Made by a program: the position numbers and the translations under genes
Assembly: GCF_029490015.1 (NCBI RefSeq)
Contig: NZ_CP120469.1
Location: 1-64,000, forward strand
Direction: 5' to 3'
Source of the DNA: Halobaculum limi
GTDB lineage: Archaea; Halobacteriota; Halobacteria; Halobacteriales; Haloferacaceae
DNA: 64,000 nt
Shown: piece after piece, positions 1 through 7,513 of the stretch
Layout: every line of letters begins with the position of its first letter
How positions within the stretch are numbered: position 1 is the first letter of the stretch
The notes under the pieces: model-generated
The model's database searches: none
The model's input: only the letters and a program-made list of their open reading frames with translations
Told to the model about the DNA's origin: nothing

Positions 1-21
1 GTCGCTCATCTCGCTATCGTG

Positions 22-123
22 CGGTCGCTGAGAGTCGTCAGGTCGCTGTAGTAGCAGGCTAATCTGATTCAGCTAAGGTAGCTATCGTAGGTATCTCAGG
101 TGGCTATTCTACCTTAGGTGGCT
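22..123. repeat. Six AGGTNNCT-type repeats upstream of parA
   Basis: Six copies of an octamer close to AGGTNNCT occur at about 22-29 (first base C), 40-47, 76-83, 89-96, 98-105 and 116-123. Start-to-start spacings are 18, 36, 13, 9 and 18. The copy at 76-83 lies in a perfect palindrome (arms AGCTA and TAGCT around AGG, 71-83), and 111-119 reads ACCT-T-AGGT. Position just ahead of a partition ATPase suggests an operator or centromere-like site; this is inference. Confidence 0.55.
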
Positions 124-327
124 TAGCAAAGGCAACTGTGCACGGTGAGACAGATGTCTTGCGTACCTTCTTTGCAGATGGCGCAAAAGCAGCGACCGAA
201 CGGCGGGCCGAAACGCGTTCCGTGGTTAACGGCGACGGGCCGGGGGAGCCAAGGAACCGACTCGAACGACGAGGCCACTGCCGGCCTCCGCGTTCAGTTC
301 CGGCGGTGGGCCGCCGACGGTGACACC

Positions 328-1224
328 ATGACCGAACACGAACCCGAACCTCGCGCGGTCGCGGTTGGCGTCCTGAAAGGGGGATTCGCCAAGACGACGA
401 CTGCGATCAATCTCGCACGCGAACTAGCATACAGAAACGAGTCTGCACTCGTCGTCGACCTCGACGACAACGGCCATATGACGCAGAACCTCGGATTCAC
501 CGAGGCGTACGAGGCCGAGACCAACCACGTCCACGAGGTCCTCCTCGACGAGGGCGACCCGCGGGAGGCTATCGTCGACGTCGTCGACGGACTCGACTTA
601 CTCCCCGCACACCAAGACCTGGAGGACGTCCAAACCCAGTTGAAGAACGCGATGGGCGGGTCGACGAGACTGAACACGCGCGTGGTCGAACCACTTCTCG
701 GCGAGGAGTACGACTACATCGTCGTCGACTGTCCGGCGAACCAGGGGAAACTCAACGAGAACGCGCTGTACGCGACGAACAACCTCATCATCCCGGTTCG
801 CCCCGAGACGGGCTACGACTCGGGTATCCACAACACGGTGAACCGACTGGTGAAGGAGGCGCGCCAGTACTTCGAGTTGGACATCCTCGCGGTCGTCCCC
901 TCCGGACTTTCACAGCGACTCGACCAGGACCGCAGGGACCGTGCGCTGTTGGAGGAGATCAACTCGATGGGCATCGCCGACTCCGTCGTGCCGAACTTCT
1001 GCCGACTCAGCGACGAGGACTGGGCGGCCATCGACGACGGCTCGTACGACGGTCCCCTGCCGGGAATCCGCTACCGCTCGGCCATCGACGACGCGAACGA
1101 CGCGGGACTCCCCCTTCGCGACTACGACGCGACGTGTGACCAACTCTCCTGTTACGACGAACTCGCGGGGATCGTCGAACGCGGCGGCGTCGTCCGCGAG
1201 ACGCCCGAGGAGGTGACGCACTGA
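328..1224 (+). CDS. parA: ParA/Soj family partition ATPase
   Basis: This 298-residue protein is a ParA/MinD-superfamily P-loop ATPase, expected to act in the cytoplasm in segregation of a replicon or other cargo. The deviant Walker A is visible as KGGFAKTT (residues 17-24). It is followed by VVDLDDNGHMTQNLG and a Walker B-like YIVVDCPAN near residue 130. I chose ATG 328 because the open frame upstream (from 145) is arginine- and proline-rich, unlike the acidic protein that begins at 328. The stop overlaps the next start by one base (TGATG), so the two genes are probably co-transcribed. The upstream repeats at 22-123 may be its operator. The family is clear; the cargo is unknown. Confidence 0.9.
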   Translation: MTEHEPEPRAVAVGVLKGGFAKTTTAINLARELAYRNESALVVDLDDNGHMTQNLGFTEAYEAETNHVHEVLLDEGDPREAIVDVVDGLDLLPAHQDLEDVQTQLKNAMGGSTRLNTRVVEPLLGEEYDYIVVDCPANQGKLNENALYATNNLIIPVRPETGYDSGIHNTVNRLVKEARQYFELDILAVVPSGLSQRLDQDRRDRALLEEINSMGIADSVVPNFCRLSDEDWAAIDDGSYDGPLPGIRYRSAIDDANDAGLPLRDYDATCDQLSCYDELAGIVERGGVVRETPEEVTH

Positions 1225-1670
1225 TGGCGTTCGACGACCTCGATCAGGCCGAACAGGAGGAAGCACAACAGGACGCGACCGATATGGACGCGTCCGCGGG
1301 GTCCACCACGGAACCGGACGAGATGCCCCACGAACCGGACGCGGAACGCGACACAGACCGGCTAGACCGGGCGCAGACTGGTGGGTCGACCGTCGACGAC
1401 ACCCGTTCAGCGAGTGGATCGGTATCGGCAGACGCAAACGCACCGGCGTTTGGCTTCGAGGAGGCGAAACAGCGACCGCTGTATGCCAGGCAGTCCGCCT
1501 GGGACGAGTTCGAGGACGCCCTCGCCATCGATGTCGAGACGACGCTCCGTCGCAACGACGTGCGCGATGCACCCAAACGGGAACTCCACGACGCCGCACT
1601 TCGCGTCCTCGCGGACCACGCGGACGAGGTGGCCGACCGCGTCCTGCAAGAACGAGGCGTCGACCGGTAA
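1224..1670 (+). CDS. Acidic partner protein of ParA, unknown function
   Basis: A 148-residue, very acidic protein whose ATG overlaps the parA stop. Residues 1-70 are rich in Asp, Glu, Ser and Thr and look disordered. Residues 75-148 contain a compact, probably helical part with several tryptophan, arginine and leucine positions (for example FEEAKQRPLYARQSAWDEFE). There is no recognisable ParB nuclease-like or helix-turn-helix motif. By position it could be the adaptor or DNA-binding partner of the ATPase, replacing a classical ParB. This rests only on gene order and translational overlap. Confidence 0.75.
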   Translation: MAFDDLDQAEQEEAQQDATDMDASAGSTTEPDEMPHEPDAERDTDRLDRAQTGGSTVDDTRSASGSVSADANAPAFGFEEAKQRPLYARQSAWDEFEDALAIDVETTLRRNDVRDAPKRELHDAALRVLADHADEVADRVLQERGVDR

Positions 1671-6238: not shown

Positions 6239-7513
6239 ATGGCGAATCAGGTCGTCACCCGCACCTACACTGCTTCCATCGGGAACCAGCAACAGGTGTC
6301 CGACGATCTTGATTCGCTCGGGTTCTCAGCCTCGAAACTCTGGAACGTCGGACGATGGGTCTGCGACCGAGTATGGTCTGAGATAGGCCACATTCCCGGT
6401 CACAACGAACTCACCGCCTACCTCAAGAGCCACGAACGCTATGATGACCTGCATTCTCAGTCAAGTCAGCGAGTTCTTGAAGAACTCGCTGAGGCGTTCA
6501 ACGGCTGGTACGGCAAACGACACAACGGGGGCACGCGAGCGAACCCGCCCGGCTACCGCAAACACGGCGACGAACACCCGCGAAGCACGGTCACGTTCAA
6601 GAACAAGGGCTTCAAACTCGACACCGAATACGAGCGAGTACGACTCTCGAAGGGGTCAAACCTCAAAGAATACTGGTCTGACTTCATCCTCTGCGAGTAC
6701 CAGACTCGACCCAACGTTGACCTCTCCACCGTGGAGAGCGTCCAACAGGTTCGGGCGGTCTGGACAGGTGATGGATGGGAACTTCACTTCGTCTGCAAAG
6801 TCGAAATCGAAGTGTCTGAGTCGCCCGGTGAGAAGACGGTGGGTGTTGACCTCGGCATCAACAACTTCGCCGCACTCGCCTACGAGGACGGCCACAGCGA
6901 ACTGTACCCGCTCAATTGCCTGAAGCAGGACGACTACTACTTCAGCAAGCGAATCGCTCGCTGTGACGACTCGAACTCCGAGCAAGCGAATCGCTTGAAC
7001 CAAAAGAAGTCGGCTCGTCGCACCCACTACTTCCATACACTCTCCAAGCACATCGTTCGGCGATGTGTTGACGAAGAAGTTGGAACGATTGTGGTGGGTG
7101 ACCTCGCCGGTATTCGCGAGGATGAGGAGAACGGTGAGTCGAAGAACTGGGGTAAGCACGGCAACCTCGACTTGCACTCGTGGGCGTTCGATCGATTCAT
7201 CTCGATGCTTGCGTATAAATCCGAGATGGAAGGCGTCACGGTTGAGCGAGTGTCTGAGCGAGATACGTCGAAGTCGTGTTCGTGCTGTGGTCGTACACGG
7301 AAAGCGAACCGTGTTGAACGTGGGTTGTACGTGTGCGACGAGTATGGTACGGTGGCGAATGCGGACGTGAACGGTGCTGAGAACATTCGGCAGAAAGTAT
7401 CTCCGAATCCTCACGGAGAGGATAGGAGTAACGGCTGGTTGGCACAGCCATCGACGTTCTTGTTTGACAAGGAAACTGGTGCGTTCGCACCTCAAGAACA
7501 GGTCACGTCGTAA
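6239..7513 (+). CDS. tnpB: TnpB-type protein (IS200/IS605 OrfB) with degenerate active site
   Basis: A 424-residue TnpB family protein, the class of RNA-guided nucleases carried by IS200/IS605 and IS1341-type elements. The RuvC-like first aspartate is present in VGVDLGIN (D204) and the last in NADVNGAENI (D376). At the position of the catalytic glutamate the protein reads TIVVGDLAGIRE: glycine 287 sits where the second copy in this window has glutamate in VIVMEDLAYIRE. The zinc ribbon keeps C347/C350, but the second pair is C366 with tyrosine at 369. It may therefore be catalytically inactive, perhaps a regulatory or decaying copy. The same substitution could also be a lineage feature. No tnpA is nearby. 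Confidence 0.9.
   Translation: MANQVVTRTYTASIGNQQQVSDDLDSLGFSASKLWNVGRWVCDRVWSEIGHIPGHNELTAYLKSHERYDDLHSQSSQRVLEELAEAFNGWYGKRHNGGTRANPPGYRKHGDEHPRSTVTFKNKGFKLDTEYERVRLSKGSNLKEYWSDFILCEYQTRPNVDLSTVESVQQVRAVWTGDGWELHFVCKVEIEVSESPGEKTVGVDLGINNFAALAYEDGHSELYPLNCLKQDDYYFSKRIARCDDSNSEQANRLNQKKSARRTHYFHTLSKHIVRRCVDEEVGTIVVGDLAGIREDEENGESKNWGKHGNLDLHSWAFDRFISMLAYKSEMEGVTVERVSERDTSKSCSCCGRTRKANRVERGLYVCDEYGTVANADVNGAENIRQKVSPNPHGEDRSNGWLAQPSTFLFDKETGAFAPQEQVTS

Follow-up and report, generated by a model that had tools for sequence, protein, structure and literature searches.

What do the short repeats in front of a haloarchaeal ParA gene do, and which protein reads them? The window (the whole stretch of DNA analyzed, 64,000 nucleotides) corresponds to positions 1 to 64,000 of contig C2 (429,105 bases), one of the two contigs of a haloarchaeal genome. 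Near its start there is a cluster of AGGTNNCT-type octamers, followed by parA and by a second, small gene that we refer to as the partner (Table 1). An earlier note proposed that these elements form a partition system with its own centromere and a non-ParB adaptor. Comparison with related loci supports this proposal. We predict, with a probability of roughly 0.8 and from sequence evidence, that the final ~100 bases of C2 and window positions 1-1670 jointly form a two-gene, type Ib-like plasmid partition cassette.

Table 1. Predicted features of the candidate partition cassette, in window coordinates
Feature	Position	Strand	Basis
Right half of candidate centromere, with two blocks of AGGTNNCT-type sites in 9-bp phase	22-123	+	Octamer scan, shuffles
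Inverted repeat AGCTA-AGG-TAGCT (AGCTAAGGTAGCT), inside the array	71-83		Read by eye
Inverted repeat ACCT-T-AGGT (ACCTTAGGT), inside the array	111-119		Read by eye
Block CAGATGTCTTGCGTACCTTCTT between array and parA	151-172	+	Conserved in Halobaculum-type relatives
parA, ParA-type Walker ATPase, 298 aa	328-1224	+	AAA_31 (E 2.1e-31); ParA/Soj PDB profile matches
Partner, 148 aa, predicted centromere-binding adaptor	1224-1670	+	Start overlaps parA stop

A scan of the + strand that allowed at most one mismatch confirms the six octamers described before, five of them exact and one a near-match. The exact AGGTNNCT copies begin at 40, 76, 89, 98, and 116, and the site at 22 is CGGTCGCT, which has one mismatch to AGGTNNCT. 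Successive starts are separated by 18, 36, 13, 9, and 18 bases, as the earlier note had it. Four of these five spacings are multiples of 9, and the start positions modulo 9 (4, 4, 4, 8, 8, and 8) correspond to two blocks of a 9-bp lattice. The repeats do lie 205-306 bases before parA (its ATG is at 328), and both of the small palindromes that had been mentioned can be seen by eye (Table 1).

The array is unusual for its surroundings. Window positions 1-150 contain five exact AGGTNNCT copies, compared with a mean of 0.15 and a maximum of 3 in 5000 dinucleotide-preserving shuffles, and no other place in the 64-kb window has more than two exact copies per 102 bases. A pair of exact octamers with 18-bp spacing occurs once in the 3.48-Mb genome (at 98-123); the reversed control of this pair has 0 matches in the same genome. 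The lag-9 identity of positions 1-150 is 60/141 (z = 5.0), a value reached in none of the 5000 shuffles, and lag-9 identity is near background in positions 151-327 (z 1.4).

The CAGATGTCTTGCGTACCTTCTT block, present in 7 upstream regions that were compared, is at a guess a promoter or an operator. This block is almost unchanged in 10 Halobaculum-type loci, where it is found at -172 to -218 from parA and the flanking DNA differs. The motif GTCTKRCR was considered as a general parA promoter element and rejected, as it occurs in only 13 of the 115 loci compared (10 of these 13 are Halobaculum-type).

The window contains only part of the array. The linearization point of C2 falls within it, and the rest of the array makes up the last ~100 bases of the contig (to 429105). 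These terminal bases contain CTATTTCGT-like units with CTAY every 9 bp, and lag-9 identity at the contig end is 54/96 (z 6.3). Of the six genomic matches to the pattern CTAY-N5-CTAY-N5-CTAY, four overlap one another at C2:429018-429066 and two are isolated. The reversed control of this pattern has 21 matches, so only the clustering of the pattern is telling; a genome-wide pattern scan found no second cluster. Gene order around the junction matches that of Halobaculum CBA1158, which supports a circular C2: in CBA1158 there is an oxidoreductase coding sequence with its end about 500 bp ahead of parA, and the matching oxidoreductase sequence ends at an equal distance (about 500 bp) across the C2 junction. 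Read across this junction, the complete array is >200 bp (a ~255-bp stretch, C2:429001-429105 plus window positions 1-150), approximately twice the length first described.

An array directly upstream of parA could be mainly an operator, with the partner and/or ParA regulating the parA operon and partition using another site. Type Ib binding proteins are known to double as repressors, according to PMC5016525. However, a stretch of >200 bp with many phased sites exceeds the needs of an operator, and the genome has no second CTAY cluster with the 9-bp pattern. We consider a mainly regulatory role unlikely, and it is partly the same reading as a centromere, as the two roles often coincide in type Ib systems.

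The window ParA has the Walker A motif KGGFAKTT, the first residue of which is residue 17. In the alignment, there is no region ahead of Walker A that could hold an N-terminal helix-turn-helix. Its family matches are AAA_31/ParA-type only, and the nearest solved relatives by profile are ParA/Soj-type structures in the PDB. The closest ParA relatives (88.6-92.8% identical) are encoded by six Halobaculum plasmids. The parA frame is open upstream (145-327) and has an in-frame GTG at 145, and an automatic annotation might therefore extend ParA to 359 aa; relatives are annotated with a start equivalent to ATG 328. A profile search of the contig collection with the ParA alignment was dominated by bacterial ParA genes and returned no haloarchaeal locus. 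Elsewhere in the window (6239-7513) there is an ORF whose translation resembles, by eye, an IS200/IS605-type TnpB protein.

The gene after parA does encode an acidic protein (39 D+E versus 16 K+R in 148 residues), as first noted. An N-terminal peptide with an FDDL motif is joined by a variable, acidic linker to a C-terminal domain that is conserved (about residues 74-146). The motif, in the form F[DEG]DL, is found in 88 of the 111 partners aligned. An arginine occurs within the first 30 residues in only 40 of the 111, and the longer acidic tail cannot be aligned. The protein had been described as lacking a ParB motif, and this holds: the window partner has no ParB family match in Pfam/NCBIfam at E up to 1, and the family matches of 105 partner members include no ParB/Spo0J domain. 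The scan of these 105 members gave no convincing Pfam/NCBIfam family for the partner. A profile built from them matched nothing among PDB sequences except, by chance, a proteasome sequence (E 0.056).

By eye, the C-terminal domain looks like strand-helix-helix, with QxPLYAR followed by two helices, and a ribbon-helix-helix (RHH) fold is plausible. Profile and structure searches do not support RHH. The hhalign score of the partner against 30 haloarchaeal RHH_1 sequences (10.9) is within the shuffled range (up to 13.1). AlphaFold predicts a hairpin of two long helices and no strand for residues 68-148 (pLDDT 76.8); the model is a single-sequence monomer, from which a paired strand is not expected. 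With this model the best Foldseek match has an E of 3.4, and the best matches in a second structure comparison (Z 5-7) are within the noise range of the tool. Histone-fold matches to the model (Z about 4) were not accepted as evidence.

Partner matches were found in 203 of 391 haloarchaeal genomes (55 of 86 genera) and in 112 plasmid records. We gathered 127 loci by partner or ParA similarity, and in all 127 a ParA ORF is immediately upstream of the partner on the same strand, a pairing that supports the proposed system. This set includes 80 extra loci hand-picked from the partner matches ranked after the first 30; the selection skipped some places (e.g., near contig starts or with in-frame stops). 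Removal of 1 partial ParA and 11 duplicates left 115 non-redundant loci, in which parA and the partner gene overlap by 4 nt (64 loci), 1 nt (28 loci), or 8 nt (10 loci). Four loci with implausible partner lengths were dropped from the protein alignments, leaving 111, and the partner family alignment has 105 members. In annotated relatives the cassette has two genes and is not of the three-gene AspA-ParB-ParA type. Scans of viral contigs gave two weak ParA-like matches (24-27% identity) and no partner. The cassettes of L278-L282 have nearly identical partners in genomes of several families, which suggests, from sequence identity, recent transfer between haloarchaea.

In the 350 bp before parA, lag 9 dominates the autocorrelation across loci (mean z 4.42), and lags 8 and 10 are below zero. 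Codon periodicity raises the lag-9 signal of coding DNA, and 40 of 177 window tiles passed z > 3 at lag 9 for this reason. We therefore rejected that threshold as the sole criterion and adopted a strict test (z9 or z18 > 3, plus z9 exceeding z6 and z12 by 2). Strict 9-bp phasing is present upstream of parA in 91 of the 115 non-redundant loci, versus 4 of the 177 control tiles of the window. A looser array test was positive for 83 of the 115. CTAY pairs in the same orientation have a spacing of 0 modulo 9 in 1716 of 3145 cases. CTAY sites in opposite orientation favor certain registers, so the units appear to be readable in either direction.

The repeat words differ by lineage. They include AGGTAGCT in Halobaculum, AATAGG/CAATAG in one large group, AGTAGA in loci with QFPFYVR partners, and GTACGA- and GTACAA-type words in other lineages. 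The earlier note held that absence of the repeats beside homologous parA genes would refute its proposal. The comparison with these loci does not refute it, as the phasing recurs upstream of parA, with words that vary. On the sequences compared, the conserved feature is the 9-bp period, not the octamer. Of the 115 loci, 24 failed the strict test. Many of these belong to a single branch in which the partner motif is degenerate, and this partner branch may use another site. The branch includes L196, L197, L202, L206, L207, L210, L211, L213, and L215-L217. Its strand motif is degenerate in most members (e.g., VHKALYVLE and QTTHHAR).

Repeats without function, arising by chance or from low complexity, are scarcely credible given the shuffle tests and the recurrence of the phasing in 91 loci, even though the array stretch is somewhat more A+T-rich than the genes. 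The same recurrence bears on the possibility that the repeats are replication iterons of an origin beside parA, bound by a Rep or Orc protein. Haloarchaeal parA can be located close to orc1/cdc6, and L016, L021, and L023 have an annotated orc gene in the vicinity. However, it is the parA-partner pair that the 9-bp period accompanies in 91 of 115 loci, and no Orc/Rep gene is annotated within the stretches shown for the six Halobaculum plasmids. We consider iterons very unlikely.

We used 20 other ParA loci as controls. In six of them we found arrays and a partner of the family described above. L284 and L285, in which the ParA gene has no small partner close by, give no lag-9 signal (z of 0.6 and 0.1, respectively), and L285 has a z of 3.2 at lag 18. 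Most of the remaining control loci represent a second ParA family; its ParA differs (motif KGGAGKTTD), and so does its small acidic partner (WNGRTIYIPDDVLDEME..., RTIYIPDDVLDEME-type), the gene for which overlaps the ParA gene. This second family is found in 121 of 242 genomes; its loci include L286, L288, L289, L292, and L294-L297, among L286-L297 and others. When the looser test was applied to 31 of its loci, 13 had 9-bp phasing upstream, most clearly with AAACGAAC-type words. The two partner families aligned end to end in hhalign, without significance. The 9-bp lattice is common to at least two unrelated-looking partner families, and since the second family has arrays with another partner, an array is not diagnostic of the first partner.

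Covariation was used to ask which protein reads the repeats. By the looser array test, 80 of 91 loci with the partner motif QxxxYxR have arrays, and among loci that lack the motif the proportion is 9 of 20 (Fisher P 9e-5, uncorrected for phylogeny). In the 89 of 111 loci with arrays, the partial correlation of repeat-word distance with partner C-terminal distance, corrected for ParA, is 0.267; that with ParA distance, corrected for the partner, is 0.315. Since ParA distance is no worse than partner distance at tracking the words, the association could also stem from ParA or from shared descent. Within the partner, the strand-like segment 82-89 tracks the words best (0.381; null maximum 0.29 in 2000 permutations, 89 loci). 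After removal of nine loci that lack Q83, Y87, or R89, the best segment is at about 93-103 (0.303; null maximum 0.249). We rejected pinning DNA reading on Q83-R89, as the peak is not robust to this removal. Across the aligned sequences the partner and the repeats co-vary, with no residues singled out.

ParA itself, and not the partner, might read the repeats, as the words follow ParA distance at least as well as partner distance and arrays are also found in the second ParA family. However, there is no room before Walker A for a helix-turn-helix domain in ParA, and the second-family arrays are also accompanied by a small partner. ParA seems quite improbable as the reader.

We favor the partner as the reader, and the cassette is predicted to function as follows. 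The 9-bp phased array would be the centromere, the small acidic partner its binding protein, and ParA the motor. Partner dimers may occupy successive 9-bp sites, in either orientation, forming a protein-DNA complex, and the filled lattice would present many N-terminal tails to ParA. On the host DNA, ATP-bound ParA may be touched by the N-terminal FDDL peptide and the acidic tail, which would stimulate hydrolysis, so that plasmid copies are moved apart or positioned. Because the array is upstream of parA, the partner-array complex probably also represses the parA operon. Whether two plasmids are able to coexist would be determined by differences in their repeat words. Four of six pairs of cassettes in the same genome could be compared, and the words are clearly different in 4/4 (79th-88th percentile of all pairs). 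In this very small sample, the differing words of coexisting cassettes fit compatibility groups.

The sequence features of the cassette include several of type Ib systems: a short ParA without a helix-turn-helix, a small gene directly downstream, and direct and inverted repeats upstream. Unlike canonical ParABS with a CTPase HTH-ParB, the partner has no ParB/Spo0J domain. The centromere repeat unit of pCXC100, a bacterial type Ib system, is reportedly 9 bp. PMC5016525 describes pCXC100 ParB/parS as an RHH ParB with a centromere made up of direct repeats only, and it characterizes type Ib proteins by their small size, a flexible tail, and DNA binding through a C-terminal domain, with the centromere located upstream of the operon. 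Unlike those of pCXC100, the haloarchaeal repeats occur in both orientations, and the proteins have no sequence match. The cassette resembles ParF-ParG (TP228; PMC5016525) in the flexible N-terminal tail and C-terminal domain (DNA-binding in ParG) of the small protein and in a centromere upstream of the operon. It differs from ParG in that the haloarchaeal tail is acidic with the FDDL motif, and an arginine finger could not be placed. By analogy, the cassette would work like a type Ib system, and we regard it as type Ib-like, not as a proven member.

The omega system (delta/omega/parS of pSM19035) is also similar, with a short ParA, a small binding protein, and contiguous short repeats in both orientations. 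PMC9499535 describes omega arrays as 7-10 repeats of a 7-bp unit with one dimer per unit, and at least 4 contiguous repeats as needed for full ParA activation. In contrast to omega, the haloarchaeal period is 9 bp and not 7 bp, the unit sequence is unrelated and lineage-variable, no sequence relation between the partner and RHH proteins is detectable, and parA is followed by an overlapping partner gene.

Among archaeal systems, SegA-SegB of Sulfolobales likewise pairs a ParA-like gene with a small archaeal gene that comes after and overlaps it, and has DNA sites upstream (PMC5120986). The sites of SegB, 13-bp palindromes (TCTAGASTCTAGA), are dispersed along the chromosome (PMC12284271), unlike the 9-bp phased CTAY/RTAG arrays of haloarchaea. 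The cassette also differs from AspA-ParB-ParA of pNOB8 in having two genes and not three. A search of the open literature (subscription journals were mostly outside it) found no description of these repeats or of the partner, and text searches in papers on haloarchaeal replication origins gave no passage on partition. Archaeal plasmid and chromosome centromeres are named as an open question in a review of archaeal genome segregation (PMC5120986).

It is possible, and we suggest it tentatively, that haloarchaea have a centromere and binding-protein class of their own, with a fixed 9-bp lattice, a partner-dependent word, lock-and-key compatibility groups, and perhaps a binding fold new to partition proteins. 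A candidate centromere, an unannotated candidate binding protein, and a motor are predicted in about half of the 391 haloarchaeal genomes. Haloarchaea are a group with working genetics. The cassette makes haloarchaeal plasmid segregation directly testable and may provide a basis for stable vectors, and plasmid incompatibility groups would be predictable from the repeat words.
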